A DNA stretch of 64,000 nt from a virus. The stretch spans positions 1 to 64,000 of IMG/VR virus record IMGVR_UViG_3300027974_001900, one strand, 5' to 3'. Positions 4,741 to 31,464 of this stretch are shown here, in pieces (within the stretch, counting starts at the first letter, position 1; each line of letters starts with the position of its first letter). Under the pieces are notes generated by a model. That model was given only the letters and a program-made list of their open reading frames with translations, had not been told where the DNA came from and searched no databases. The position numbers and the translations under genes are program-made.

Positions 4741-5505
4741 CTAGATATTTCTCAATAACTTTTTAACTTCTCTTGCTATTGATTCTTCTAGTCCACCAAG
4801 TTTAGGGTTAGGGGCTTCTTCTTCTTTTTTCTTGCCTAAATCCTTTACATCCTCAGCTTTTCTTACACCAAAACTTTTTGTTCCTACCGTTGGCTTTTGT
4901 ACCGGAGCTGTAACTCCTGTGCTGCTTGGTTTTGCTGTTGGCTCTGCAGGTTGTGCTGATTGACGAGCCTGATCTCTAGCGTTTGCAGCAGCAAGTGCTT
5001 TTGCTGCGGGATCTGCTGCCATGCCTGCACGATACTTGGCTACAAGTTTTTGCATATCTTGCTTATTACCAGCATTTAATGCCGCAACCATTGTATTGAT
5101 ATCTGTTAGTGGCATTTTCTTAATATCATTAAGATTCAATGCGCCAGATCCAGATGCTCCTAAATAAGCATTAATAGCAGCCGTAGTTTTTGGACCAAAT
5201 ATTCCAATTACATCTTTTTTATCTAAAAAACCAACTTGAGCTAATTTAGATTGTAATTTTAATACGGCAGCTTTTCTTTGTTCCGGTGTCTCAGAAGCTT
5301 GATTTATTATGTTTGCAAGACCGCCAAGATTTTTTCCAGCCGCTATGTCAGCTACTGTATCTGTTGCTGGCTTTGCTCTACCGCCAATATTTAGCGGTCC
5401 ACCAAGACTTTGTACATTACCTCTAGTATCGGCAACTGCGGCTTGCTCTTTTAATACTTTTTGTAATTCTTCTAAAATAATTTTTCTTAAAAACTCTGTG
5501 CCCAT
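4741..5505 (-). CDS. Putative capsid-internal protein with peptidoglycan-binding-like domain
   Basis: The 254-aa protein has three parts. Residues 1-22 form an amphipathic helix (LRKIILEELQKVLKEQ) ending in LKE-Q. The middle (about 85-125) matches the PG_binding_1 pattern, with LQSKLAQVGF and GIFGPKTTAAINAYL. An Ala/Pro/Lys-rich linker leads to a second short helix (ESIAREVKKLL). T4 capsid internal proteins carry a short N-terminal helix cut by the gp21 protease after (L/I)xE, and the same layout here suggests a protein packaged in the head. A late-type element 20 nt before the ATG supports a virion role. The alternative is a tail-associated wall-binding protein. It stands alone between the helicase and nrdJ. 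Confidence 0.6.
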   Translation of the reverse strand: MGTEFLRKIILEELQKVLKEQAAVADTRGNVQSLGGPLNIGGRAKPATDTVADIAAGKNLGGLANIINQASETPEQRKAAVLKLQSKLAQVGFLDKKDVIGIFGPKTTAAINAYLGASGSGALNLNDIKKMPLTDINTMVAALNAGNKQDMQKLVAKYRAGMAADPAAKALAAANARDQARQSAQPAEPTAKPSSTGVTAPVQKPTVGTKSFGVRKAEDVKDLGKKKEEEAPNPKLGGLEESIAREVKKLLRNI

Positions 5506-5541: not shown

Positions 5542-6906
5542 TTACTTTGGAGTCCTAAACTTCTCAAAAATTTCTTGCTTCTTATTTCTTGGCTTCTTAC
5601 TTTTTGTTTCTGTCACTTCCTCTTCCTTTATATCTTCTAGAACTTCCATCTTTACGACAGATGTATCCATGTAAAGTGGCATTACAATTCCGTCTGGGCC
5701 ATTACGATTCTTAGCAATAAAGATACGACCTGAATTGGTTTTCTTATCATCTACAGTTCTTGAAACTGAGAAAATAAAGTCAGCTACGAAACACTTATTG
5801 AATGCTTCTGAGATTGATTCCATCGTAACAACTTCAGCATTTAAGCCAGAGCGATTAGTCTGAGAAGCAGTCCACACAGGACAAATAAATTCCATTGCAA
5901 TTGCACGCAGCTCTTCGTAGATAGTTTCCAGCTCTGTTCTCTTTTCTTTGTAACGTACAGTTGGATTAAGCAAGTCGCCATAGTCAACAATAATCATATC
6001 TACCTTTTGACCAGATGATACAACTCTCTTTAAGTGATTCTTGATTACAGAAGTACTTGCTGATTTTGTTGGGTATTCTTTGATGATTAGCTTACCCTTG
6101 ACATTCTTAACTTCATCAAGAATATACTCTTTCTGATCCATAAGACCAGTTAGAGGAACACCAGTTAAACACGAGTCATAACGACTTGCGACAACTGTAT
6201 CGGAGAGTTCAAGAGTATAATGAACGACTTGCAAGCCAGCCTTAACTGCCATAGCTCCAAGATGAACCAAGGCCATAGACTTGCCAGCACCAGTTGGAGC
6301 AATAACAACACCAAGCTCTCCTCTTCCGAGTCCACCTTGTGTAATACCATCAACACGATTCCAGCCAGTAGAGACAGGGTTGCGTTCTTTAAGCATAAAT
6401 CTTTTTTCGAAATCGAGCTTATAGTCATAACCATAATTATTATCAGTTCCGAGTTTAAGCGCAGAAGTTACAATAACGCCAATCTCATCAAGAGTATTCG
6501 ACTTGTTCATAAGTCCAGCACTCTTGACAAGGGCTTCTTTGATTTTTTGACGACGACAGAAATCAAGAGAAGTATCCTTGATATAATCTTCGTCGTCAAT
6601 TTCTGGTGATGCTGTGATTCTCGCAAAGTAATCTCTTACTTGCTTGTTTAATGCATCGTTGTCGTCTTCCAACTCTGTCCGCAAGATTGTGGACATGATG
6701 TTGGCTGACGGATACATGTCATACTTATCTCTGTAATCAAATAGCTTCTTGCAGAAGCTTTGCAAATATTTTAACTCAAAGAAGTTTAAATCAAGAACTT
6801 CTCTTAATTGATCAGCAAACTGCCGATCTGAAAACATCAATTGTGCGAGTTTCTCTTGGAAAGATTTACCAAACTTTGAGAAGTCTAATTGATTATTGTT
6901 GCTCAT
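5542..6906 (-). CDS. 41: Replicative DNA helicase, T4 gp41/DnaB type
   Basis: Hexameric 5'-3' helicase that opens the fork ahead of the polymerase and carries the primase. The 454-aa chain has an N-terminal helical domain and a RecA-like core from about residue 178 (TGWNRVDGITQGGLGRGEL). Walker A is APTGAGKS (203-210) and Walker B lies in DMIIVDYGDLL (about 309-319); ASQTNRSG follows as in DnaB-family helicases. The C-terminal 40 residues are Lys/Glu-rich. It overlaps the RNase H gene by 14 nt and closes the operon started at the promoter near 8176. Confidence 0.93.
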   Translation of the reverse strand: MSNNNQLDFSKFGKSFQEKLAQLMFSDRQFADQLREVLDLNFFELKYLQSFCKKLFDYRDKYDMYPSANIMSTILRTELEDDNDALNKQVRDYFARITASPEIDDEDYIKDTSLDFCRRQKIKEALVKSAGLMNKSNTLDEIGVIVTSALKLGTDNNYGYDYKLDFEKRFMLKERNPVSTGWNRVDGITQGGLGRGELGVVIAPTGAGKSMALVHLGAMAVKAGLQVVHYTLELSDTVVASRYDSCLTGVPLTGLMDQKEYILDEVKNVKGKLIIKEYPTKSASTSVIKNHLKRVVSSGQKVDMIIVDYGDLLNPTVRYKEKRTELETIYEELRAIAMEFICPVWTASQTNRSGLNAEVVTMESISEAFNKCFVADFIFSVSRTVDDKKTNSGRIFIAKNRNGPDGIVMPLYMDTSVVKMEVLEDIKEEEVTETKSKKPRNKKQEIFEKFRTPK

Positions 6907-7864
6907 TCTTTACCTTCGATGTTATTGAAATCATATTTAGATCTGCGAATAATTCTGTCCAAGAGAAATTACCAGTTCCATCCTGCATCATCATCATACG
7001 AATGTTTGTTTTGTTGAACCCAACAGGATACTCATCAATGATGCCGCGAATTTTCTCTCTCACATCAATAGAAAGTGAGGGAGCATAAAGCTGCATCATA
7101 TCATAATTGTCTTTAATAAGTTTCTCTGATTCCAAAATTGATTCGTGAATCTTTAATGGCTTGGACTCATTCTTGCACGCATCGAAGATTTCTGTCAACA
7201 TCACAGATTTTTCTTCTTTAAGCTGAGGGAACTTCTTTGCCATTGTTTTTAGTCCAACACCCTTAGCACCAGGTAGGTTGTCAGAAGAATCACCAACGAC
7301 GGCTCTTGCAAGGGCAAAGTTTGTGGGGTGAATATCAAACTCATTTACTACTTTCTCCACGTCATAATATTCTTCTTTACAAGGACGATATAGCAGCGTT
7401 GTTGGATCAAGAAGCTGCAAAAAGTCCTTGTCGTTAGAGATAATTGTCTTTTTATCTGTTGGCAGTTCTCTGCACAGAACAGAAATAGCGTCATCTGCTT
7501 CGACAAAATCGAGATAGATTTGTGCAACAGGCATCTCGTTTAGATATTCAACCACTCTACCATACTGCCAATACTTATTCTTCTTCTCTTCATCTTCTGT
7601 TAGGTTGCCAAAGTTTCGATTAAGCCTAACTGGCTTGCGACCTTCTTTATAGTTGCTGTTTACTGCTCGTCTACGGATTGCAGATTTAGGACCATCCCAG
7701 CAGAAATAGATCTTATCAGGATTATTCTCCCTAATAAGTTTCTGCATTATTTTAAATGTACCCTTGATGCCTCCAGTCGGTTGTCCATTGGGTCCGAGTG
7801 AAGGGTCCATCATATACGCACGAAAGAACAGGTTTAACCCGTCAATTATTAATACATTACTCAT
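6893..7864 (-). CDS. rnh: 5'-3' exonuclease / RNase H (T4 rnh, FEN family)
   Basis: Removes RNA primers and flaps from lagging-strand fragments. The 323-aa chain begins MSNVLIIDGLNLFFRAY with metal ligand Asp8. It also has EADD (second acidic cluster), SNDKDFLQLL, and GDSSDNLPGAKGVGLKT, the helix-hairpin-helix region with two more aspartates. An upstream in-frame start (7966) would add 34 residues that overlap the preceding gene and resemble nothing; the ATG at 7864 has the site AAAGGAT and places the IDG motif at the N-terminus, as in the family. It overlaps its upstream neighbour by 8 nt and the helicase by 14 nt. Confidence 0.92.
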   Translation of the reverse strand: MSNVLIIDGLNLFFRAYMMDPSLGPNGQPTGGIKGTFKIMQKLIRENNPDKIYFCWDGPKSAIRRRAVNSNYKEGRKPVRLNRNFGNLTEDEEKKNKYWQYGRVVEYLNEMPVAQIYLDFVEADDAISVLCRELPTDKKTIISNDKDFLQLLDPTTLLYRPCKEEYYDVEKVVNEFDIHPTNFALARAVVGDSSDNLPGAKGVGLKTMAKKFPQLKEEKSVMLTEIFDACKNESKPLKIHESILESEKLIKDNYDMMQLYAPSLSIDVREKIRGIIDEYPVGFNKTNIRMMMMQDGTGNFSWTELFADLNMISITSKVKNEQQ

Positions 7865-8141
7865 TGTTATCCTTTGGTTGTGACCACAGAAAATCAGGGT
7901 CTTGTTGTTTCTTTTTTTCTTGTTTATCAACAAGATCTTGCATTGCTTTAATGAGGGTTCCCTCAAAATGACTTTGATCCCATTCTGCTAAATGAAATAG
8001 CTGGTTATAATTTTTTATAAATCTCTGATCAACATCAAATACAACATTCGCACTACCATCTTCATTATCTTTGATTTCAACAACTTTTATGTTTCCAAGT
8101 TGTTCAAGTTGTTTTTTTGTATTATCAAATTCTTGATTCAT
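7857..8141 (-). CDS. Hypothetical 94-aa protein, first gene of the RNase H-helicase operon
   Basis: I do not recognise this protein. It is small and acidic-to-neutral, with an N-terminal helix (KKQLEQLG), a beta-like stretch (GSANVVFDVDQRF) and a charged, Lys/Gln-rich C-terminus. It starts at an ATG with SD GGAG, downstream of a sigma-70-like promoter, and its end overlaps the RNase H start by 8 nt, so the two are translationally coupled. A replication accessory role is suggested only by position. Confidence 0.7.
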   Translation of the reverse strand: MNQEFDNTKKQLEQLGNIKVVEIKDNEDGSANVVFDVDQRFIKNYNQLFHLAEWDQSHFEGTLIKAMQDLVDKQEKKKQQDPDFLWSQPKDNNE

Positions 8142-8215: not shown

Positions 8216-9442
8216 TTATAGAACTTTCTTTTTTGAAACGTCTTGAACCAATCTCTCAAACAAGCTAGATGAAGATCCTTCTCTTGTTTTAGTTATCCAG
8301 TTTTTAGATTCTTTAAATACTCCGTATTTTTTACCAACTTGAACAACTTCTGGATCTCCAATCTTATCTGGAGTGATTCCTTTTGAAGCATACGCTCTCG
8401 CTGCGTTCAATTTATCCATCTCGTTGGATTTATCTTCTTGTCCTTGTGTTTGGACACTAGATAAACCAGGAACTGATCTACCTTTTGTTTTAATAGCTCC
8501 TTGAATAAACTGTACGACTTCCTCACAGCCTATAGAAGTACTTCTTTTTGTTGCTTGAGATACAGCATTTGCAACAGCAAAAATTAGACTATCATCTCCT
8601 TGCTGTGATGATTGTAAATAATTTGGAACATATTGTTGAATTTCTTCAAATGTATAAGGACCAGTTGGCTTAATAAATGATGGGCATTTTAACTTATCAA
8701 CTGTTGATCCATATTTATTTGTTGGATCTATTTTTTGACCACTCTTTGTATCTAATTTTGCTCCGCTAATCCATGCTGCGCCTGTTTTAGCTAAGGCCTC
8801 ACAAACAGATCTTTGATAAGTTTCTTTCATCTTGGGATCTTTGTTGCCAATTAATTCTGGTAACTTAATTCCTTTTGATGCAAAATCAACTCCACCAGAT
8901 TTAATTGTTGGATCTAGGACTAGTTCTGCAAAGGTGCTTGATCCAATTTTTCCATCCGGCGTTAATCCTTTTGATTTTTGGAAATTTTTTGTTGCCTCAA
9001 CTTCTGCTGGCATCTTGCAAACAAAATATTTCTTTGGTCCGCTTACAGCTTGCGGTCTTTTATTTTGACCAGTTCCTGTCCCTTGAGATGCGCGACCTTG
9101 AACAGCTCCAGCGGCTCCCGAAGATCTATAAGAAAAATTTGCAGGTTGATTACCGACCAATTTTGGATTATTTTTAGTAGAAGGATTATCCTTAATAAAA
9201 TTTTGGTATATATTATCTGTGTCAGATCCATTCCTTAATGCAGAATCAAAGCTTGCTAAAAATTTTGAAAAAGGAGTGTTATTAGTATCATAAGGGCGTG
9301 TTGTATCCCATAGTTTTTTAATAAACGCTTTATGTTCTGACGGAATTCTGTTACCTACATTAGTTGTATCATCCGGCATTTGAAAAGATTGTTCATTTAA
9401 TATTTTTTTAATTTCGTTTAAAACTTGTTGCCTAAGGGACAT
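8216..9442 (-). CDS. Putative capsid-internal protein with peptidoglycan-binding-like motif
   Basis: The 408-aa protein starts with an amphipathic helix (LRQQVLNEIKKILNEQ) ending ILNE-Q, closely like the N-terminus of the 254-aa protein at 4741-5505. A Gly/Ser/Thr-rich linker follows (about 110-135), then a peptidoglycan-binding-like helix pair with FQKSKGLTPDGKIGSSTF (about 155-172). The rest is unrecognised, with several Cys and Gln/Ser-rich parts. A late-type element lies 25 nt before the ATG and a strong terminator follows, so it is a one-gene late unit inside the replication region. The N-terminal (L/I)xE suggests delivery to the prohead and cutting by the gp21-type protease. A wall-degrading activity cannot be shown: no catalytic motif is visible. 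Confidence 0.6.
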   Translation of the reverse strand: MSLRQQVLNEIKKILNEQSFQMPDDTTNVGNRIPSEHKAFIKKLWDTTRPYDTNNTPFSKFLASFDSALRNGSDTDNIYQNFIKDNPSTKNNPKLVGNQPANFSYRSSGAAGAVQGRASQGTGTGQNKRPQAVSGPKKYFVCKMPAEVEATKNFQKSKGLTPDGKIGSSTFAELVLDPTIKSGGVDFASKGIKLPELIGNKDPKMKETYQRSVCEALAKTGAAWISGAKLDTKSGQKIDPTNKYGSTVDKLKCPSFIKPTGPYTFEEIQQYVPNYLQSSQQGDDSLIFAVANAVSQATKRSTSIGCEEVVQFIQGAIKTKGRSVPGLSSVQTQGQEDKSNEMDKLNAARAYASKGITPDKIGDPEVVQVGKKYGVFKESKNWITKTREGSSSSLFERLVQDVSKKKVL

Positions 9443-9496: not shown

Positions 9497-10651
9497 TTAT
9501 TCTTCCTCAAAATCTACATCAGACTCATCTTCACCATCGATATTGTAAAAGTTCTTTGCGTGCCCTTCTCTTGAGTCAAACTTTTGAATGACCTCTTTCT
9601 CCATCAAACGAAGGATCTGGTCCTTAAATGCTTGATCTTTTAACATGTCCAACCACTTTGTGGTCTGGAATTTAACTTCTTTACCATCATCAAAGACCAG
9701 TGTATACCAAGCTCCTGTCTGCTTGATTTGATCAGAGTTCTTGATCGCTTCAAACCACGATTCTTCATCTTGAACGGCAACATCATCACCGCCCCAAAGA
9801 ATCTTAAAGGTACACTCTCTACCTTGTGTACCAAATCTAGACTTTTCAATCTTAGCTTTGACTTCATTACCAACTCTAAATCCAGCATCATTAAGTAGAA
9901 AGCTCGCCTTTCCTTTTCTTGCTGTTAGCCAAATTCTTAGTGAATAAGCATAAGCCAGTGCTTTACCGCCTGGAGTAAAATACGGGCTTAGGAGAGCCTC
10001 TTGCGGGCTTCTGGTGATGTTTGTTTTCAGCTGGTTGAGACACAGAAGAGTGCTACCACTATTTGCCAAAGGCTGAATAAGTTTAGAGAACGCTTTTGAT
10101 AGAATTCTCGGTTTAACTGCCATTGATGACTGCGGATCGAAGTCTCCTTCAACATCTGTCTCAGTTGGAGTAAATGCGATTGAGTCCCAAATAAACATCA
10201 TCTTGCTTGGATTGTTAGCAAGTAATTCTTCAATTGTTTCCAATACAAATTCTACCGAACGTGCTTGTACATAAAGCAGTCTTGATACATCAACTCCTGC
10301 CTTTACCATAAAGTCAGAAGCGATTGCAGATTCAGAGTCAAAGTAAATTACATCTATTCCTTTCTTCTGTGCATTAGCTGCAATTTGTGCAGCCATATAG
10401 CTTTTACCAGCAGATTCAAGACCAGCAAGCTCTACAATTTTACCCATTGGAATACCAGCCAACTTTCCTCGACAGATAATCGAGTCAAGCCAACGAGAAC
10501 CAGTTGGAATCCAGTCTTCAACATCAGTTGGGTTTGTTTCTTCTAGCGAGTAGGCAACAATACTACCCGCTTTCTTATTGAGAATATCTCTCATTTGATC
10601 TATTGAGATTCTTCCCTTAACATCTTTGTCTTTCTTTTTAACGTTTGCCAT
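9497..10651 (-). CDS. uvsX: RecA/UvsX recombinase
   Basis: Forms filaments on single-stranded DNA and drives strand exchange for recombination-dependent replication. The 384 residues include Walker A GLESAGKS (77-84), the FDSESAI segment after it, Walker B MMFIWDSI (about 145-152), the CLNQLKTNI region, and an acidic tail (DGEDESDVDFEEE) typical of RecA and UvsX. It lies directly after ssb but is separated by a terminator and has its own promoter, so the two can be expressed at different levels. The SD is TGGAG. It is the last gene before the late 408-aa unit. Confidence 0.93.
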   Translation of the reverse strand: MANVKKKDKDVKGRISIDQMRDILNKKAGSIVAYSLEETNPTDVEDWIPTGSRWLDSIICRGKLAGIPMGKIVELAGLESAGKSYMAAQIAANAQKKGIDVIYFDSESAIASDFMVKAGVDVSRLLYVQARSVEFVLETIEELLANNPSKMMFIWDSIAFTPTETDVEGDFDPQSSMAVKPRILSKAFSKLIQPLANSGSTLLCLNQLKTNITRSPQEALLSPYFTPGGKALAYAYSLRIWLTARKGKASFLLNDAGFRVGNEVKAKIEKSRFGTQGRECTFKILWGGDDVAVQDEESWFEAIKNSDQIKQTGAWYTLVFDDGKEVKFQTTKWLDMLKDQAFKDQILRLMEKEVIQKFDSREGHAKNFYNIDGEDESDVDFEEE

Positions 10652-10712: not shown

Positions 10713-11462
10713 CTATACGCCAAGATCTTTCAGGGCGGAATCTAGATCTTCCCCGCCATCGTCCGCAGCATTGGTGGAACCACCTCCTTCATCGCTCGGT
10801 CCATTAAGGAATTCATCAAGAATCTCGGCAACTTGACTTGCTGTTTTTCGCTCAAACAACGAGTCGAAATCAGTACCATGATTAACTAGTTCCGTCATCA
10901 GCTCTTTCTTCATGGAGAGAGGAGAAGATTTACGTTTTGGTGTTAAACTTGTTTCTGGATAGAGTTTACCAGACTTTTTGGACACAGACACAACTAGGTC
11001 CAAACCTTCATCAGTATCGGTAATGTCGCCATACTCAGGGTTAAGCATTAGTTTGAGAAGTTCTTCGTAGATGGTCTTAGAGAAGCCCCAAACTTGGGCA
11101 CCCTTATCTTCTTCGCCACGAACGACGATCGGGGAGAAGAAACGCTGCTTGGCAGTCATGTCCTTAGCGAGCTTACGGCTTTCCTCATCACCTTCTTTGT
11201 AGAGTTTGGAAACCAGATCACACATTGGGCAGTTCTCGCCAAAGTTCTTCTTCGGACACAGAACACTTTGAAACTTTTTCTCTGTGCGAAGATAGTGGAA
11301 ATAGAACTCTTTCAGAGGATCTCCGTCATCAGTTGGAAGAATACGGATGGTTGAATCCACGCCGTCAAGAGGCTTCCAGTATTGTGTGGTCTTACCTTTT
11401 GCGCCACTTTTGTTGTTGAGGTTGTTTAGTTTTTCACGCATTTTTTTGAGATCAATAGCCAT
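10713..11462 (-). CDS. 32: Single-stranded DNA-binding protein, T4 gp32-like
   Basis: Coats single-stranded DNA and organises the replication and recombination proteins. The 249 residues follow the gp32 plan: a basic N-terminus for cooperativity (KKMREKLNNLNNKSGAKGK), a core with a zinc-type cluster (Cys69, Cys78, Cys81 in LCP and NCPMCD), and an acidic C-terminal tail (EGGGSTNAADDGGEDLD) used by gp32 to bind partners. It is slightly shorter than T4 gp32 (301 aa). It lies 11 nt after the tubulin-like gene in the polymerase operon and is closed by a terminator. Confidence 0.85.
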   Translation of the reverse strand: MAIDLKKMREKLNNLNNKSGAKGKTTQYWKPLDGVDSTIRILPTDDGDPLKEFYFHYLRTEKKFQSVLCPKKNFGENCPMCDLVSKLYKEGDEESRKLAKDMTAKQRFFSPIVVRGEEDKGAQVWGFSKTIYEELLKLMLNPEYGDITDTDEGLDLVVSVSKKSGKLYPETSLTPKRKSSPLSMKKELMTELVNHGTDFDSLFERKTASQVAEILDEFLNGPSDEGGGSTNAADDGGEDLDSALKDLGV

Positions 11463-11473
11463 TGTTTTTTCCT

Positions 11474-12298
11474 TTATTCTTGAATAATGTTGGTGTTTGA
11501 AATAATATAGACAAAGTTGGATTCGTAGTTTGTCGTTGTGATTTTGTACGAAATGTCCAACTCTGTACCAGAGTACGAATTTCTCGTCTGCTGTTGGATC
11601 AGTTTAATCAACTCTTTATTTGTTGTCAAGTCCTCTTGTTTAACTGCATAGAGAAAAACTTTCTGTCTTGCTGATGCCAAATTATAGAGGTAATTTTCTG
11701 TTCCATCTTCGACATTTAAAATGCCGACAGTAGAAATTCTGTCCACATCTCTTTCTGCTGACATCTTGCCAAAGACATCTTTTGCTGTCAACAGGTAGTT
11801 TACCATGTGAATTGTTGATACGATCACTTTGTTTAAACTATCATAGTATTCCATGATTGATAAACCGCCAAGCAAATTTTCTACTTGAGGATTTGAAATA
11901 AGAAGCATTTTTTTAAAGAGTCCGCTTCTTGTAAACTCTTGAAGGATACCAAAGATTGCTCTATCTTTTACTGCTATCTCTGTTGAAATTAAGTTTGGGT
12001 CTGGTCGAACATATAGAACAGTGATGTTTGTATGTTTTACTTGTTCAAGTATTCTAAGAGAAGCACCAGATATATTACCTCCACCGCATAAGACTAACAA
12101 GGTCTCGCCTTTTAGTTTTGTCAAAGGCTTAAATTCTGGTAGTTTTTCTTCATATTCTTCTATCGTTTTACAAGCTGGGATACTTAAACAGTTTTTACCT
12201 TTTAAACCAACATCAGCTTTAAAAACTTTATACTCTGGGTATTGAGAGAACAAGTCCGCTATTGCACAGCCACCTTTGCCAAGTCCTAGAATGTTCAT
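11474..12298 (-). CDS. Tubulin/FtsZ-superfamily-like protein
   Basis: The 274 residues match the N-terminal GTPase fold pattern of FtsZ/TubZ. The first strand and T1 loop are MNILGLGKGGCAIADLF (1-17). ETLLVLCGGGNISGAS (65-80) fits the strand plus Gly-rich T4 loop, with GGGNISG where FtsZ has GGGTGTG. VLYVRPDP aligns with VAVVTKPF. RAIFGILQEF with LLISNPQVENLL aligns with AxxGIxxL and LIVIPNDRLL, and a long helix (DSLNKVIVSTIHMVNYLL) parallels the central H7. A T7-like acidic stretch (ERDVDRISTV) follows. The chain stops soon after, so much of the FtsZ C-terminal domain is reduced. It overlaps the polymerase stop by 4 nt (ATGA) and precedes ssb. Whether it binds GTP or polymerises is unknown; relation to jumbo-phage PhuZ is inference. 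Confidence 0.55.
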   Translation of the reverse strand: MNILGLGKGGCAIADLFSQYPEYKVFKADVGLKGKNCLSIPACKTIEEYEEKLPEFKPLTKLKGETLLVLCGGGNISGASLRILEQVKHTNITVLYVRPDPNLISTEIAVKDRAIFGILQEFTRSGLFKKMLLISNPQVENLLGGLSIMEYYDSLNKVIVSTIHMVNYLLTAKDVFGKMSAERDVDRISTVGILNVEDGTENYLYNLASARQKVFLYAVKQEDLTTNKELIKLIQQQTRNSYSGTELDISYKITTTNYESNFVYIISNTNIIQE

Positions 12299-13473
12299 AG
12301 TTTTTTCATGTCTCCATAATTCTTACCAACTTTTTTAGTAATCATAAATTTACCAAAGTCAGTGTTTGCAAATGTATTACAAATATCTTTAACCAGATCT
12401 TTATCTTCTGTTGCTATATCTAGCACAATTGAATCGTGAACCAAAAACTTAATAAAAGATTTTTTATCTTTTAACAATTTATTTACTTTAATTGCTTGTC
12501 TCAAAAAACAATCAGAAGCTGTGCTTTGTAGAATATAATTGATTGCGTGCTCATTATCTGCCCTTATCTCTCTTCCATAGCAATTTTTAACAACACAGCC
12601 GTCATAATATTTGTCACGAACAACATTCTTGTCATAGAAGATCTTCACCTTCTTATCCTGCTGAGGGGGTAGTGTAGTAGTCCCCTTCTCATCGTACATC
12701 CAAGCAAGGAATCTCTTCTTAGCTCCATCACGATTTGTACCAATAAAAATGTTATCTTTATTCCATTCGTGGAGATCTGTATTTGGTTGTTTTTTTCCGT
12801 TTAAAGCAAGTAAGACTCTTGGTTCAAATGCGTTAAAGTCTAATTCCAACAAGAAATCATTGGTCGGTTCGACAATACAGCGAAGGTTCTTATTCATCGT
12901 AAGAATCGAGAAACTGTCATGGTCGGCAGATAAACGACCAGTTACGGTTCCAAACATATTATATTTAACTTTTTTCTTCATCTTGCTGGCACTGCGAATT
13001 TCTCCAATAGCAGGAAGATTCTTCATCTCAACTTTTACATCATTTTGAGATATTTCGTGCAGCATTTTATTAAGATTATAAAGAAATTCATAATTTTCCG
13101 GTCTTTTCTTTGTTTGGAAGATTTCATTCATTATTGCAGAACGAACTGAAAATAATTCATGAATGAAAGAAACCGGTACAAGATCAAAAAAGCAGTTCTC
13201 ATCAAGAGAGACTTGAGCTGTAATAAACGATTTCATGTACGCTCTTAGCTTTGAACGTATTAATAAATACCTTTCTCTCATTTCGTGAGAACAGGCATCT
13301 TCAATATTCTTTGTTCCAGCGTAAAGACAGGCAAGTTCATATTGCTTGTCACCCATGAGTGGGCTATAATCCCAGGAATGAGTCAAATTATCTACCGACG
13401 CAAACGGAACCACCTTTCCATCAACGTAGCAGGAATCGCAAATTTTCTTGGAATCAATTAGTTCAAAAATCAT
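12295..13473 (-). CDS. Family A DNA polymerase, short form without 3'-5' exonuclease domain
   Basis: The phage DNA polymerase or its catalytic half. The 392 residues carry the Pol I palm and fingers: TVTGRLS (176-182), motif A LLELDFNAFEPRVL with Asp212, an O-helix RDGAKKRFLAWMY (248-260), QSTASD, and motif C FLVHDSIVLDI. In motif C the usual HDE is HDS (346-348). There is no room for an exonuclease domain; T7 polymerase is 704 aa and most phage polA are longer. The ATG at 13473 is chosen over a GTG two codons upstream because the predicted transcription start falls on it. The sigma-70-like promoter ends 6 nt before the ATG and no Shine-Dalgarno is present, so the mRNA may be leaderless. The next gene overlaps by 4 nt. 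Confidence 0.88.
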   Translation of the reverse strand: MIFELIDSKKICDSCYVDGKVVPFASVDNLTHSWDYSPLMGDKQYELACLYAGTKNIEDACSHEMRERYLLIRSKLRAYMKSFITAQVSLDENCFFDLVPVSFIHELFSVRSAIMNEIFQTKKRPENYEFLYNLNKMLHEISQNDVKVEMKNLPAIGEIRSASKMKKKVKYNMFGTVTGRLSADHDSFSILTMNKNLRCIVEPTNDFLLELDFNAFEPRVLLALNGKKQPNTDLHEWNKDNIFIGTNRDGAKKRFLAWMYDEKGTTTLPPQQDKKVKIFYDKNVVRDKYYDGCVVKNCYGREIRADNEHAINYILQSTASDCFLRQAIKVNKLLKDKKSFIKFLVHDSIVLDIATEDKDLVKDICNTFANTDFGKFMITKKVGKNYGDMKKL

Positions 13474-13479
13474 GACCAC

Positions 13480-13508
13480 ATCTTATGGCATCTTAGATTT
13501 CGTGTCAA
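13480..13508 (-). promoter_or_regulatory. Sigma-70-type promoter giving a leaderless polymerase mRNA
   Basis: TTGACA (13503-13508, overlapping the stop of the preceding tail gene), 17-nt spacer, TAAGAT (13480-13485). Only 6 nt separate the -10 from the ATG at 13473, which puts +1 at or next to the A of the start codon. Confidence 0.75.
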
Positions 13509-14758
13509 GCTGGACCTTGAATTGGTCCTCCTTGTTTTATACTTCTTTCTCTGAAAGGTAATGTAGAAACATTATTATTGAATATAGAAATAGCTTCACA
13601 TACTGCCTTTTTAGTGTTTTCTTTGTACAGATCATCAAATCTTGACAAAGCAATTGAAGTATAGTATTCTAAATTTTGATCATTTATATTATCTCTTATT
13701 TCTATTTTTCTCATCTCAAAAAATAGTTTAATATAAAACTTATGCATTTCAGAAGTTGAAGAGAACATAGTAATTTTTGATTTTTCATTATTAACAGCTT
13801 TTGCATTTTCACATCTATCAAATTCTAGTTTCTTAAAAGTAGGAAATTGAAATGTAAAACTTTTATAAAAAGTTTCTAATGCAACAATAAATTCTCTATA
13901 ATAATCATAATCTTTTTCTTCTACCGGTATAACTCTTTCATAATAAACATCAAACAATTTTTGAAGATTATCTTTTAAATCTTCTGGTATAATTTTTAAT
14001 TTTGATGTTTTTGTTTCTTCTGCTATTTTTTCTGCAACCAACTTTTGTCGTATGTCGCAAGTTAATCTCCAAGGAATTTCTTTATTTAAAATAAAACCAT
14101 GTTTTAAACATAATTCTAAAAATGCAGAATAATTTATATCATTATAAAATTTTTCTTTTATAATTGAGTCAGAAGCATTACCTGAATAAACATCTAGTAC
14201 TAATCCCGTTTGTAAAGGAGAAAATTCTCTAGATTCTATGAATCCTGCTCTTGTAAAATAAAAATCTTTTTCAAAAAGAAAAATTTTTAATTCTTCTAAG
14301 AAGATTTCGTAATTATTTATTTTGTTTAAATAACCATCATTAACAATATAATCTAAAAATAAAGAATAGATGCTTTTTAATTTCTCTAAATAAAGAGGTC
14401 TTGAAGTTGTAAACCCAGCAACAGGAGATAATGTTTCTTTAAAAAATTGGCTTCTTTTACTAAGATTACCTTGTTTATAGTTTCTCTCATATTCTCTCTT
14501 TACATCTTTAAAAAGTTCTGCTACAAAGTCAAAAGCTTGAATCTGTTTAGGGTCTGTTGCAAATGTTGCAAATTTAAGTTTCTGTTCTCTTGGTATTACA
14601 GCATTACCTTTGGTATCCACCTTGCCATAAAATGGTTTATTGTACCAAGTATCAACATAATATTCTTCAAATAAATAATCATCCAATTTTCCTGTTGGAT
14701 TGGAATTTTCATTTAATGTTTTTCTAGCGTTAAACAAATTTTTAAATTTATTTGGCAT
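13505..14758 (-). CDS. Hypothetical structural protein at the end of the tail operon (417 aa)
   Basis: I do not recognise a family. The 417 residues are Lys/Glu/Phe/Tyr-rich and look largely helical, with no membrane segment or enzyme motif. The N-terminus (NLFNARKTLNEN) is short and basic, and the C-terminus is Gly/Pro-rich (GGPIQGPA). It follows the 914-aa hub-like gene by 15 nt and is the last gene of the transcript that begins in the sheath region, so a baseplate or tail component is likely by position. Its stop codon overlaps the -35 of the polymerase promoter. Confidence 0.6.
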   Translation of the reverse strand: MPNKFKNLFNARKTLNENSNPTGKLDDYLFEEYYVDTWYNKPFYGKVDTKGNAVIPREQKLKFATFATDPKQIQAFDFVAELFKDVKREYERNYKQGNLSKRSQFFKETLSPVAGFTTSRPLYLEKLKSIYSLFLDYIVNDGYLNKINNYEIFLEELKIFLFEKDFYFTRAGFIESREFSPLQTGLVLDVYSGNASDSIIKEKFYNDINYSAFLELCLKHGFILNKEIPWRLTCDIRQKLVAEKIAEETKTSKLKIIPEDLKDNLQKLFDVYYERVIPVEEKDYDYYREFIVALETFYKSFTFQFPTFKKLEFDRCENAKAVNNEKSKITMFSSTSEMHKFYIKLFFEMRKIEIRDNINDQNLEYYTSIALSRFDDLYKENTKKAVCEAISIFNNNVSTLPFRERSIKQGGPIQGPA

Positions 14759-14773
14759 TTTCTATACCTTATA

Positions 14774-17518
14774 TTATTTTTTAGCGTTTTCTTTTTCACT
14801 ATAATCTTGTGGCTTCTTTACATTTGGCTCTTTAGGTTTATTTTTATTTCCTTTTGTTTTTTGTTTATTAGTATTAAGGCCAAAATTAGTTAAAGTCTTT
14901 ATGTCTGTTTTGATTAAAAGATCTATGTATGATGCTGGGTCGTAAGTATCTGCCGGTATATAATCTAATATTTGAGATAATTTTTGTCCCTTATTATCAT
15001 TTTCTGTAGTTGGTTTACCGTTTTTACCGTATCTTCCTCCCGACCAGAACCAATCTCCTGATACAACGCTTTTGTATGAGCCATTTGCATCAATAGAATC
15101 TTTTAGACCCTTTACTTTATAATACCCGACTATGCCTATGTCGTATTCTGATCCGGCTAGTCCAAGTGGAGGAGTTGGAATACAGATTATACTACCATGA
15201 TTAAAGATAGAACTTCCGAAAGTTTCCGCACTTAATGAGTACTGATAAAAGAAATAACTACTATTTTCATCTGTCATAGCCTGCAAAGCAATACCAGATC
15301 TAAGACCTTTAAGATCAATTTGCTGGAAATCAGCGCTCAAAAACATTCCACCGTCTGAGCCGATTATTAAATGAGGTATTCCGTTTTTTGCATCTTCTGC
15401 TTCATTTAATTGCAATTCTCTTGTATTAGAAACAGAAAAATTATTTGCTGTTGTCTCTTTTAAAGTTGAGATATTAAGTTTTGAATAAACAATTAGTGGT
15501 TCACTATTTTTATCATCGTAAAAGTTGTTTCTAATATTTGAAGCAAACTCTGCCATAAATGCAGAGTTTGGGTCTGTATGTTCTAAGAACCATTTTGAAT
15601 TAGTATTATTCCAAGTCTTCTTAATATAGAAAGAAGGATTAAAATCTTGTACTGTTATTCTAGTTGTATTCTGAGGATATGTTTTATTTCTATATAAAAC
15701 TTCTGGTACTAAATCATCTATTAGTTCTTTTACAAAGTGCCCAAAAGATATATCGACAAATCCTTTATTATAAAATTTATTATGCATCCATCTTTGAAAG
15801 TAGTTTAATTCTATCAAAATATTGCCAGCATTAATATTATATGTTTTATCATAAACTCTTGCAGTTAAATTTCCAAATAAGATTGTTGGAACATAAAGCT
15901 GCTCTTGATTAACTTCTTCATTTATCATTTGATAAGCGGCTCTTATGAGCGCTCTAAGTGGAAAGAAAACTATATGTCCACTTCTTTTATCAGAGTTTAT
16001 ATGCTCCCTCGGAGTGTTAAACAATCTGTTTAGGATACCCTCCATTTTATTTTTAACATTTTCTGGGATCGTATCTTTTCTAAAAAAATCATCTAATTTA
16101 TATTCTTTAGATGCTAGATCACAAAACTTAATTTCTCTGCCATCGTCAGGACTTATTAGATTTAAAGATGCGTTTAAAGAATAAGATTTTAACTTATCAT
16201 CTTTTTTAGTATTAAAAGAAATAGAATATAAATCAAAATTATTTTGTAATGTCTTAACAAAGACATCTTTAAAGTAAGGAACAAGTTGTCTCTTTACCAA
16301 AGATAAATTTTTAGAAATTTCGGTTTCTAAGTTACGAAGATTTTCTAATCTTTTCTTTTTTGTCTTTTGAAGATCTTCTATACTATCTTGACCTTTTTTA
16401 ACTTTCTCTGCGTCTTTAATTTGATACAATAAAAGATTTTCTATCTTTTCTTTTGTTTCTTCTAACTTTAATTTATTTTGATTATACTCAGATAGAAGAG
16501 TAACAGCACCGGCAGACTTTGCTTTTAATTCGTTTATTAATTGCTTATTTGAAGAAGAATCTGCTGGAATCGTTATGTTATTATCTGAATCTAAAAATGC
16601 TTCTGCTAAATTTACATAAGTAACAGATATGTCAACTCCGCCCTCTTTGTTAAACTTAAAATTATGAGAGGTCTTTAGTAGTCCAAATTTTTTAACTTCT
16701 CTAGTATTAATGTAATTACAAATTTTTAATGGTATCTGATGCTGGTGTTCTAACCCAGGGTCAACGTAATAACCATATTCCAATTTTAATACTTCTTTTT
16801 TTATTCCTATATTGGAAAACAACTTCATAAATGAGAAGCCATATTTTGGTTCTGGCTCTCCTTCTTTCGTCGGTATTTTTCTAGTTAGAATATTCATATT
16901 ACTAAAAAAATAACTTATAGAAATATTACAATTTTTCTTAGTTCCTAAATTAAACTGAATATCGTTTGTAACATTTTTTATACCACTCCCTTCCATAAAG
17001 GCATTTGGATTGGATAAAATTTTATCTAATTCAAAATATTGAGAGAACGGAAATTCTACGAATTTGAATTGTTCATTTTTATTTTTTGGATTATCTTTCC
17101 ATCCATAATATAATTTTACATAAGGTTGAATAAATGCCATTTGAAACGGTTTAATACCATTCATAAATAAAATGTAATCTTTTAAATCATCTCTATTACC
17201 CGCTGCAAGATGACCGGTAGAAATATTATTTTCTAAAATATCAGAATACTTTCCATTAAGAAAAACAAATTTCTCTTCATTTTTAAATTTGTTTTTATTG
17301 GCATTTAAAAATGCTTCAAATAATTTTTCTTTTTCCAAAATAGTTTTTATTGGTTCTGCTGAATTATCTATTATTTTTGAAAAATCGTTGTACAACAAAG
17401 AATAAGCAACACTTTCTTTGTTTCTCATTATTTGAGGCGTAATAAAATCGTTTAGCCACCCTTCTGGGTTTAGCTCGTTAAAAGGAAAAAATAAATTAAA
17501 CTCTTCTGTGTTTGCCAT
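14774..17518 (-). CDS. Large baseplate/tail hub-like protein (914 aa)
   Basis: Unrecognised at sequence level. The 914-aa protein has an N-terminal part with tail-like beta segments (IQPYVKLYYGW, LEYGYYVDPGLEHQHQIPLKICNYINTREVKKFG split by loops) and a coiled coil at about 340-405 (KLKLEETKEKIENLL, then KKKRLENLRNLETEISK). A central region follows, then a beta-rich C-terminal region (HLIIGSDGGMFLSADF, GLRSGIALQAM, VGYYKVKGL), and a Lys/Asn/Pro-rich tail. It lies between the gp53-like wedge gene and the 417-aa gene, 2 nt from the former, and size and place suit a baseplate hub component (gp27 or gp5 position). No lysozyme motif is visible. Confidence 0.55.
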   Translation of the reverse strand: MANTEEFNLFFPFNELNPEGWLNDFITPQIMRNKESVAYSLLYNDFSKIIDNSAEPIKTILEKEKLFEAFLNANKNKFKNEEKFVFLNGKYSDILENNISTGHLAAGNRDDLKDYILFMNGIKPFQMAFIQPYVKLYYGWKDNPKNKNEQFKFVEFPFSQYFELDKILSNPNAFMEGSGIKNVTNDIQFNLGTKKNCNISISYFFSNMNILTRKIPTKEGEPEPKYGFSFMKLFSNIGIKKEVLKLEYGYYVDPGLEHQHQIPLKICNYINTREVKKFGLLKTSHNFKFNKEGGVDISVTYVNLAEAFLDSDNNITIPADSSSNKQLINELKAKSAGAVTLLSEYNQNKLKLEETKEKIENLLLYQIKDAEKVKKGQDSIEDLQKTKKKRLENLRNLETEISKNLSLVKRQLVPYFKDVFVKTLQNNFDLYSISFNTKKDDKLKSYSLNASLNLISPDDGREIKFCDLASKEYKLDDFFRKDTIPENVKNKMEGILNRLFNTPREHINSDKRSGHIVFFPLRALIRAAYQMINEEVNQEQLYVPTILFGNLTARVYDKTYNINAGNILIELNYFQRWMHNKFYNKGFVDISFGHFVKELIDDLVPEVLYRNKTYPQNTTRITVQDFNPSFYIKKTWNNTNSKWFLEHTDPNSAFMAEFASNIRNNFYDDKNSEPLIVYSKLNISTLKETTANNFSVSNTRELQLNEAEDAKNGIPHLIIGSDGGMFLSADFQQIDLKGLRSGIALQAMTDENSSYFFYQYSLSAETFGSSIFNHGSIICIPTPPLGLAGSEYDIGIVGYYKVKGLKDSIDANGSYKSVVSGDWFWSGGRYGKNGKPTTENDNKGQKLSQILDYIPADTYDPASYIDLLIKTDIKTLTNFGLNTNKQKTKGNKNKPKEPNVKKPQDYSEKENAKK

Positions 17519-17519
17519 T

Positions 17520-17864
17520 TTATAAACCGTATGTTGTTAGTACATAATCTAGTGGTTGCGGTATTTCAATAACGTTACCAAAAGTTAATTCGTTTTCTGT
17601 TCCTATCTTATTATACCATGCTATGACCCACCAATAAGATGGATCTCCATAATAAATATAAGAATATTTATATAATCTAGACCCAAAACCCCAGGTTTCT
17701 GTTTGTACTTTCATGCCTAGTCTTTCTGTTAATGTTGGGTATCTTAAATTCTCTGTGTTATATTGAGCTATACCATTATAAGGAAATCTAGAAGAAAAAA
17801 TTAATTTATAATCATCATCTACATTTCTTATTATTTGCATTTCTTTGTATCTAGATAAAGACAT
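17520..17864 (-). CDS. 53: Baseplate wedge protein, gp53-like with LysM-type C-terminus
   Basis: T4 gp53 joins the baseplate wedges around the hub. The 114 residues have the gp53-type C-terminal pattern: YSYIYYGDPSYWWVIAWYNKI followed closely by GNVIEIPQP, which is the LysM-like fold also seen in gp53. The length is about half of T4 gp53 (196 aa), as in many phage wedge proteins of this class. It starts with MSLSRYKEM and lies 2 nt before the hub-like gene and 14 nt after the tube-cap-like gene, all in the tail transcript. Confidence 0.75.
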   Translation of the reverse strand: MSLSRYKEMQIIRNVDDDYKLIFSSRFPYNGIAQYNTENLRYPTLTERLGMKVQTETWGFGSRLYKYSYIYYGDPSYWWVIAWYNKIGTENELTFGNVIEIPQPLDYVLTTYGL

Positions 17865-29577: not shown

Positions 29578-31464
29578 TTAACCAATTAGGTCGGCAACAA
29601 CTACTAGACCAAACATGTCTGGACGAACCATCTTCTTGGCGTAGCGAGTCATTAGACCCTTTCTTGGTACAAAGTCTTCTGTACCAAAGATTGTTGGTGT
29701 AATCATTAGTGGTACGTATGGAGCGTAGACATAACCACTTTCGAGGAATGCCTTGCCTCTACGACCAACGAGGATTAGGTTGCGTGGGAAGTATGGATCA
29801 ACATAGAGATCCCACTTCTTGCTGAGGCTACCAGCCTTGACTGCGCCAACTGAACCGCCCTTTAGATCTTCCATGCTGACATCAGCGCGGAAACCAGAGG
29901 TGAATTCTAGGATGTTGGCAACTTCAGGTGAAGTTACAAGAAAGTTCGCACCACCACGTCTTGTCTTTCTGTGGATTTGAGCTGAAACGTCATTAATTGT
30001 TTCAATGAGTGTTTCATACCACATGCTGACATTGCCTGTGAAGTCCGGTGGAGCACCGACTGATGTGATGCTTGCGCCTGAATCACGGTTGACGAACTTA
30101 CCTGGTCTGCGGCTCCAGTACTTGACTGCAGCTGTTGCACCCTTAACGAGATCGTTGAGGATTTCTTGATCAATTTCAAGAGCAACGTGTTCAGATAGGA
30201 TGCTTGTTAGCTCAACTTCAGCATCAAGGTTGTGGTAAGCGTTTAGGTCTTGACCTAATTCTGGTGACCACTTGGCCTTGAGTTTCTTGGTTTGAGCTGT
30301 TACAGCGATGCTATCGACTTTGATATCGATTTCTGGGATTGTAGCATTAAAGCCAGTTGCGCTAGTTGGAGTGTAGTTTGAACCACTACCGGCACCTTCA
30401 AGATACAATGATTCAGCAATTGATCCCAAAGTATTACCACCTGGTGATACTCCATCTCTGACTGCAAATGTTACTAGCGGTGTAGCTGAACGAGCAACCA
30501 TTGTTGCCAAGTCTATTGCTTTGGCAGCAGTTGCTGAACCTGTTGCTTGAACAACGAATAACAAGCCAGCTGTAGTGGAGTTGAGAGAAACAAGACCATT
30601 ACTTCCGACAAAAGCTCCCTTTGTTAATCTTCTTACTATTGAGCCAGTTGTTGGGTATAATTTATGTGGACTATCAGAACCAACTGTTGGTGAGAAAGTA
30701 ATGATATTCTTCATATCAAGATTTGCTGCAGCTGCTGGAAGTGTGCTACCTGTTACAACAAATACTGCAACAGCTTGACCTACTAGATCTGCATCATAGT
30801 CTACTAATTGCGATAATGTTGTAGCATTTGGGAAAATTGTTGCAGCAGGACCAGTTAATGTGCTGACAAGAGCAGCGTCATCACCAACTCCGCCACCAAC
30901 AGTTCCAGATGCAATACAAACAAATGCAGCATTTCCCGCTCCTGATCCAGTAGGAGATGAAAAGCCGTTATTTAGTGAGTAGAAGCTTTTTTCTAGGTTT
31001 TGAACACCATTGCTATCAACACCAGTTAAGCTAACACCACCAGTGATTTGGCTAGCTACAACGTTACCACCGTAAATAGATTGAGCACCAATTGCACCTA
31101 CATTTGTTTTACTTGCTGTATCATTGCTATATGTAAAATCAAGGAAGAAGATTAGACCGGATGGTAGGCTCATTGGTTGAACTGCTACGAGTTCATTTGC
31201 AATTAGACCACCGAATACGCGTCTAACAATTGGGAATGCAACTGCAGCAAAACCTTCAACGTCACCAGCGGACATTGTGGAAGCTTCACGGAGTAGTTCC
31301 TTTGCTTGATTTTCTAATAGACGTGACATTGTTGTTCTTGTTACGTCGCTATCGATTCCTTCGAGTAGACCTGTTCTCTCCCATTTCTTTGAGAGGGCAG
31401 CGCCTTCACGAAGGAGATTTCTTTCTACAATATTTTCTGTTAATCTTTCGACTATACTTGCCAT
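29578..31464 (-). CDS. 23: Major capsid protein, gp23-like (628 aa)
   Basis: Main shell protein, HK97 fold. The N-terminal 60 residues (SIVERLTENIVERNLLREG to KELLREAST) look like the T4 delta domain, with LLRE-A at residues 57-61 a good gp21-type cut site ((L/I)xE). T4 cuts after residue 65. The mature region ends in SLSKKWDLYVDPYFPRNL and LVGRRGKAFLESGYVYAPYVP, then PTIFGTEDFVPRKGLMTRYAKK, the usual gp23 ending. It is about 107 residues longer than T4 gp23 (521), the excess being Ala/Ser/Thr-rich near residues 140-350. The SD is AAAGGAGA; it follows the scaffold gene by 30 nt. Confidence 0.93.
   Translation of the reverse strand: MASIVERLTENIVERNLLREGAALSKKWERTGLLEGIDSDVTRTTMSRLLENQAKELLREASTMSAGDVEGFAAVAFPIVRRVFGGLIANELVAVQPMSLPSGLIFFLDFTYSNDTASKTNVGAIGAQSIYGGNVVASQITGGVSLTGVDSNGVQNLEKSFYSLNNGFSSPTGSGAGNAAFVCIASGTVGGGVGDDAALVSTLTGPAATIFPNATTLSQLVDYDADLVGQAVAVFVVTGSTLPAAAANLDMKNIITFSPTVGSDSPHKLYPTTGSIVRRLTKGAFVGSNGLVSLNSTTAGLLFVVQATGSATAAKAIDLATMVARSATPLVTFAVRDGVSPGGNTLGSIAESLYLEGAGSGSNYTPTSATGFNATIPEIDIKVDSIAVTAQTKKLKAKWSPELGQDLNAYHNLDAEVELTSILSEHVALEIDQEILNDLVKGATAAVKYWSRRPGKFVNRDSGASITSVGAPPDFTGNVSMWYETLIETINDVSAQIHRKTRRGGANFLVTSPEVANILEFTSGFRADVSMEDLKGGSVGAVKAGSLSKKWDLYVDPYFPRNLILVGRRGKAFLESGYVYAPYVPLMITPTIFGTEDFVPRKGLMTRYAKKMVRPDMFGLVVVADLIG

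Follow-up and report, generated by a model that had tools for sequence, protein, structure and literature searches.

A degenerate tubulin/FtsZ-fold protein encoded beside the DNA polymerase of uncultured Far-T4-like phages

The window analyzed here is a stretch of 64,000 nucleotides (positions 1 to 64,000) of the IMG/VR virus record IMGVR_UViG_3300027974_001900, and it carries a block of replication genes in which one open reading frame encodes a 274-residue protein of the tubulin/FtsZ fold (Table 1). The preliminary description of this DNA, made from the letters alone, had placed the frame between a polymerase and an ssb gene and had singled out four segments of its product, GLGKGG, CGGGNISGAS, RAxFGILQEF (RAIFGILQEF in the translation) and LLISNPQ. 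All four are found in the frame in the order claimed, and Pfam identifies a family-A DNA polymerase on one side and a gp32-type ssDNA-binding protein on the other. The stop of the polymerase gene and the start of the FtsZ-like gene overlap by 4 bases in the window, and the plus strand across the frame contains many stops. Among close relatives (78-82% identity), dN ranges from 0.11 to 0.15 and dS from 1.6 to 3.0 (dN/dS < 0.1); since dN lies far below dS, these comparisons of coding sequence indicate that the frame is a real, selected protein gene under strong purifying selection.

Table 1. Genes of the replication block and features of the FtsZ-like protein, with window coordinates.
Feature	Position	Strand	Basis
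FtsZ/tubulin-fold protein, 274 aa	11474..12298	minus	ORF with ATG start, AF2 model, Foldseek, hhalign, relatives
T1 loop GLGKGGC, residues 5-11	12266..12286	minus	Alignment: G5, G7 invariant; G10, C11 nearly
D29, aligned to FtsZ T2-loop Asp (S. aureus D46)	12212..12214	minus	D in 51/56
Shortened T4 region GGGNISGAS, residues 72-80, replacing GGGTGTG	12059..12085	minus	Alignment and model
Family signature QE(F/Y)TRS, residues 120-125	11924..11941	minus	Q120, R124, S125 invariant; end of predicted helix 106-124
N136, T6-loop Asn equivalent	11891..11893	minus	52/56
Central helix H7, residues 148-171	11786..11857	minus	AF2 model
Linker in place of T7 loop and helix H8	11738..11785	minus	AF2 model and alignment
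Reduced C-terminal domain, S7-S10 and H10-like helix	11477..11737	minus	AF2 model
Cluster c3, 417 aa, conserved, upstream of polymerase, no known family	13505..14758	minus	Locus comparison
Minimal family-A DNA polymerase, ~394 aa, without exonuclease domain	12295..13479	minus	Pfam DNA_pol_A 1.4e-10, AF2, Foldseek
gp32-type ssDNA-binding protein	10713..11462	minus	Pfam gp32 2.9e-20, PHROG 5.6e-30
UvsX-like recombinase	9497..10651	minus	PHROG 2e-59
5'-3' exonuclease	6893..7966	minus	PHROG 2.3e-34
DnaB-like replicative helicase	5542..6906	minus	PHROG 4.4e-71

In the loci fetched for comparison, the order c3, PolA, FtsZ-like gene, gp32, UvsX, 5' exonuclease and DnaB recurs with small insertions, and all 82 upstream polymerases and all 80 downstream ssb genes share one strand with the FtsZ-like gene, without exception. 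Of 83 loci, 49 have a polymerase gene that overlaps the FtsZ-like gene and 62 have the two within 20 bases of each other, while the remaining 21 show a spacing of at least 60 bases, several with a small ORF between. Such inserted ORFs of about 85-120 aa were seen both between the polymerase and the FtsZ-like gene (c10; L010, L044 and L086) and between the latter and ssb (c11; L018, L024 and L062), and they are possible partners. Upstream of the polymerase, three clade-conserved ORFs of 417, 914 and 114 aa (13505-17864, minus) have no Pfam family. Peptidoglycan-binding-like domains also occur amid the replication genes, at 4741-5505 and 8216-9442 (minus), the second below the Pfam cut-off.

The virus itself resembles Rhodothermus phage RM378, against which phmmer matched the major capsid protein (MCP; 2.5e-67), terminase (7e-71), portal (2.1e-43) and ribonucleotide reductase (1.5e-103), and the window's sheath, prohead protease and DnaB helicase proteins match that phage as well. 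A phoH gene is present in another part of the record, and published work describes phoH in Far-T4 phages (PMC4360716). From these protein similarities we assign the virus to the Far-T4-like phages; the earlier label of a T4-like phage does not hold in the sense of a close relative of T4. RM378, the sole cultured Far-T4 phage, was considered as a carrier of the FtsZ-like gene and rejected (HMM best E 0.22); it has no detectable homologue of the neighbouring PolA, gp32 or UvsX either. The capsid protein (29578-31464, minus) matches at least 598 IMG/VR contigs, and the clade is very common and uncultured. Marine Far-T4-like viruses have been linked to Bacteroidetes/Flavobacteriales (PMC7198788, PMC13037479).

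Presence of the gene was assessed in 34 contigs picked on the capsid gene alone. Sixteen carry it, 16.7-21.8 kb downstream of the MCP gene by their coordinates, and the other 18 stop no more than 17.8 kb downstream, before or about the place where the gene would be expected; three of these, L134, L186 and L142, extend 16.7-17.8 kb and are therefore ambiguous. The gene is thus present in every MCP contig that clearly reaches the site, which suggests that it belongs to the core genes of the uncultured Far-T4-like clade.

A single-sequence search of IMG/VR with the FtsZ-like protein returned 8 loci, and an alignment-based search yielded 336 tblastn-confirmed relatives, the best 80 of which were retained; the working alignment (A2) contains 56 members, whose identity with the window protein is mostly 30-43%. 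No relatives were found in cultured phages, and three members of the family used as tblastn queries had no match among 50,697 phage records. Neither Pfam nor PHROGs provided a named family: the best PHROG match, phrog_24038 (7e-5 in 3 members), is without function, and the sole Pfam matches are weak and to Rossmann or other families (TrkA_N, E 0.036, in 3 members). With the PF00091 tubulin model the virus record gave no hit, even when the threshold was relaxed to E 10, and searches of PDB sequences with a single sequence and with an eight-member profile returned nothing meaningful. We found no literature joining "Far-T4" and "FtsZ", and the Far-T4 papers examined are silent on FtsZ. A scan of genome contigs gave one locus, L102, in a WOR-3 MAG with the same phage gene order. 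Its contig (CP070664.1), which bears the label of a chromosome of candidate division WOR-3, carries the polymerase/FtsZ-like/ssb/UvsX block, which is either phage sequence in the bin or a hint of the host. On the contig of L182, the family member at 62823-63686 contains an internal TGA stop, either an error or a sign of decay.

The preliminary description had proposed a tubulin/FtsZ-like protein and had named structure prediction beforehand as a possible means of refuting it. The AlphaFold2 (AF2) model, built with the A2 alignment as input, is confident (mean pLDDT 93.2, pTM 0.91) and does have the tubulin fold, with a GTPase-type N-domain, a long central helix H7 and a C-terminal alpha/beta domain. 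In FtsZ terms, and by our own assignment, its elements follow the order S1-H1-S2-S3-(short H2)-S4-H3-S5-H4-S6-H5-H7 (24 residues)-linker-S7-S8-H10-S9-S10. In a Foldseek search of the PDB, Aquifex FtsZ ranked first (E 2.2e-13; TM 0.74, normalized to the query, over 318 columns), and the best 50 matches listed comprise 49 FtsZ chains and one Bacillus cereus TubZ (4ei7, rank 49, E 3.7e-11), with identity to FtsZ and TubZ of only 10-16% in the structural alignments. Among viral models, an annotated phage FtsZ was the best match, followed by other proteins including annotated tubulins.

Profile comparison, which had also been proposed as a check, led to the same family, which single-sequence and Pfam searches had not detected. 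Aligned by hhalign to 20 FtsZ sequences, the family matched colinearly over 177 columns (P 8e-5), while six unrelated families from elsewhere in the operon, used as controls, gave P 0.057 or worse. The core-column profile score against FtsZ was 41.0, compared with 15.3 (SD 2.8, maximum 25.4) for 150 column-shuffled versions, 14.5 for the reversed alignment, and 19.6 and 25.6 for two NAD-type Rossmann proteins, these last over short, non-colinear stretches. The match to PhuZ profiles was weak (P 6e-4, 28% probability); FtsZ and PhuZ profiles matched each other with P 4e-12. Given a confident model that matches FtsZ best, along its entire length, and a significant colinear profile alignment, the first reading was right on both fold and homology, and we consider a true FtsZ/tubulin fold with descent shared with FtsZ to be close to certain. 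The proteins form a new, degenerate family of this fold, named by no family library and found in an unexpected location.

Within this fold, the nucleotide-binding loops are partly retained and partly lost. The T1, T2, T5 and T6 sites were placed by profile alignment and the H7 sites by gapless comparison, none of them from coordinates. The T1 glycines G5 and G7 are present in 56/56 members and G10 in 55/56; P99, the T5 proline equivalent, is present in 55/56; and H7 conserves an aromatic residue at position 151 (Y151) together with N156. Because the T1 loop, the T2 aspartate, the T5 proline and the T6 asparagine are retained, nucleotide binding is still possible, an inference made without any nucleotide-binding data. 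The T3 gamma-phosphate loop (GAGANPE in FtsZ) is shortened, with about 10-15 columns absent from the profile alignment. In the T4 region, where the model has a strand at 65-71 and a helix at 75-86, the family consensus G-S/G-G-x-I-S-G-A-S does not meet the tubulin signature GGGTG[ST]G; the Gly loop had been called non-canonical, and both alignment and model agree that GGGTGTG is gone. A further signature, QE(Y/F)(T/A)RS, is nearly invariant and family-specific, and we know of no FtsZ counterpart for it. In FtsZ, the T2 and T3 loops touch the beta and gamma phosphates and T4 touches the alpha and beta phosphates (PMC8456036).

Further losses lie beyond the central helix. That helix, expected from the first inspection, is predicted, and the C-terminal half is reduced as had been suggested, according to both model and alignment. 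The T7 motif NxDxxD and helix H8, which serve GTP hydrolysis and longitudinal contact in FtsZ, are both lacking: H8 is missing from the model, and residues 168-187, exactly 20 long in 56/56 members, contain no conserved acid. The short T7-like acidic segment proposed earlier (AERDVDR in the window protein) is not conserved, since acidic residues reach at most 66% of members at any site of the H7-S7 linker. N167 (55/56) is paired by hhalign with the T7 asparagine, but it lies inside the predicted H7. Assembly of S. aureus FtsZ requires each of D46 (T2) and N208, D210 and D213 (T7) (PMC8936486). The T3/T4 changes together with the loss of T7/H8 make a classical GTP-driven protofilament unlikely, the absence of filaments being inferred, and the missing interface favours the earlier suggestion of a perhaps non-polymerising protein. 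Filaments could still form via non-canonical longitudinal contacts.

The adjoining polymerase was likewise modelled with confidence (AF2 pLDDT 91.9) and is of Pol I type, with Foldseek matches in the Pol I family and no exonuclease domain. This small polymerase forms a conserved family of its own, with only distant matches in cultured phages. Each of ten long contigs has a single PolA place, which adjoins the FtsZ-like gene in those contigs in which the positions of both were established; a family-B polymerase was found in none of the ten. No clamp (PF02916) scored above the cut-off in ten related contigs; as the controls included no T4-type virus, this absence is weak evidence. Pairwise amino-acid distances of the FtsZ-like protein correlate with those of PolA (r 0.88), gp32 (r 0.81) and UvsX (r 0.40). 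Since the PolA and gp32 distances also correlate mutually (r 0.83), linkage accounts for part of this co-divergence.

The gene is thus conserved, coupled to the polymerase and co-diverging with it, its product lacks the filament parts, and the only recognized replicase is unusually small; for these reasons we judge a role accessory to replication the most likely one, with a filamentous DNA organizer, a nucleotide sensor and a decoy of host FtsZ as weaker readings, none of them experimentally tested. Overall, the protein is best explained as an accessory factor of the phage replisome that derives from FtsZ and forms no filaments, a reading to which we give slightly less than even confidence. 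The accessory role taken by itself remains tentative in the absence of interaction or localization data, and the specific proposal that a tubulin fold was recruited as a dedicated non-polymerising replisome subunit, accessory to the small exonuclease-less family-A polymerase, is a shade more tentative still. Under this proposal, the FtsZ-like protein would be produced together with the minimal polymerase and would most likely bind it, and perhaps also gp32-coated DNA, the binding being inferred; the polymerase would be stabilized or regulated by it, and a nucleotide, if bound as the retained loops would allow, would act as a structural or regulatory ligand and not as fuel for filament turnover. 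Only context speaks for involvement in the replisome, namely the fixed position, the gene overlap and the correlated divergence with the polymerase, and genetic linkage alone can explain both the neighbourhood and the divergence.

The rival that survives best, still an unlikely one, is a divergent phage cytoskeletal protein, analogous to PhuZ or TubZ, which would assemble into filaments through altered contacts and would position or organize the replicating phage DNA. The T7/H8 interface with its catalytic acids and the T3 gamma-phosphate sensor are missing or shortened, however, and there is no C-terminal tail of the kind used by PhuZ. The shared fold, the TubZ among the PDB matches listed and the weak PhuZ profile match are compatible with it, as is the precedent of AlpC, a prophage actin-like protein on which efficient replication of the viral DNA depends (PMC4446434).

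More doubtful is a regulator or enzyme that has the FtsZ fold and senses nucleotides, coupling replication or nucleotide synthesis to the GTP/dNTP level. The positions on the base and ribose side (P99, N136, N156 and Y151) show stronger conservation than those on the phosphate side, and the phage has genes for ribonucleotide reductase and for an IMPDH/GMP reductase-like enzyme, but no catalytic motif was recognized and we know of no FtsZ-fold enzyme of this sort. The latter phage enzyme, of the IMP dehydrogenase/GMP reductase type (1012-1977, minus; Pfam 1.2e-76), lies near ribonucleotide reductase.

Slightly less credible again is a decoy that caps or co-polymerises with host FtsZ and so prevents the infected host from dividing. 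Division inhibitors are known from phages, and a protein that keeps the nucleotide-loop half and has lost the T7 end is arranged as a filament cap would be; it is nevertheless doubtful that the protein still binds host FtsZ, because identity to FtsZ and TubZ is so low, and a single replication-operon site across a very diverse clade, with divergence that follows the polymerase, is unlike an anti-host accessory gene. Finally, an ordinary Rossmann nucleotide- or NAD-binding protein, unrelated to tubulin and with a Gly-rich loop resembling that of FtsZ, would suit the weak Pfam matches but is highly improbable given the confident model and listed matches that consist solely of FtsZ and TubZ and extend along the full length, central helix and C-terminal domain included, and a generic Rossmann protein was rejected on the poor, non-colinear alignments of the two NAD-type controls.

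To our knowledge, all tubulin-fold proteins are defined by filament formation, and we know of no replisome subunit of tubulin descent. A tubulin fold without its filament and hydrolysis parts, retained as an apparent core gene and fixed to a DNA polymerase in a widespread uncultured clade, suggests that the fold has been reused inside viral DNA-copying machinery. Should the protein prove to be a replisome subunit, it would illustrate what the tubulin fold can do without polymerising and how an unexpected partner may complete a minimal polymerase; the gene also offers a marker and a named, testable function for Far-T4 phages.

FtsZ, the cell-division GTPase of bacteria and archaea and the best structural and profile match, has in common with the phage protein the S1-S10 fold and order, the T1 Gly loop, the T2 aspartate, the T5 proline and the T6 asparagine, whereas the phage protein is only 10-15% identical to it, has a short T3, no T4 signature and no T7/H8, and is encoded in a phage replication operon. 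The best viral structure match, A0A6J5RW92 of an uncultured Caudovirales phage (E 6e-13, TM 0.74), differs in being 452 aa long, only 15% identical and annotated as "FtsZ Cell division GTPase". AlpC of prophage CGP3 is likewise a phage cytoskeletal-fold protein tied to viral DNA replication (PMC4446434), but it has an actin fold and is unrelated to the FtsZ-like protein. TubZ, the plasmid and phage partition tubulin, shares the fold; in the present protein, by contrast, the polymerising parts are missing, and its neighbours are replication genes with no partition partner seen. PhuZ, of the phiKZ-type nucleus-forming jumbo phages, is also a phage-encoded protein of the tubulin/FtsZ fold, but the genome studied here is Far-T4-like and not phiKZ-like, there is no convincing profile relation, and the FtsZ-like protein is shorter, lacks T7/H8 and is encoded within a replication operon.
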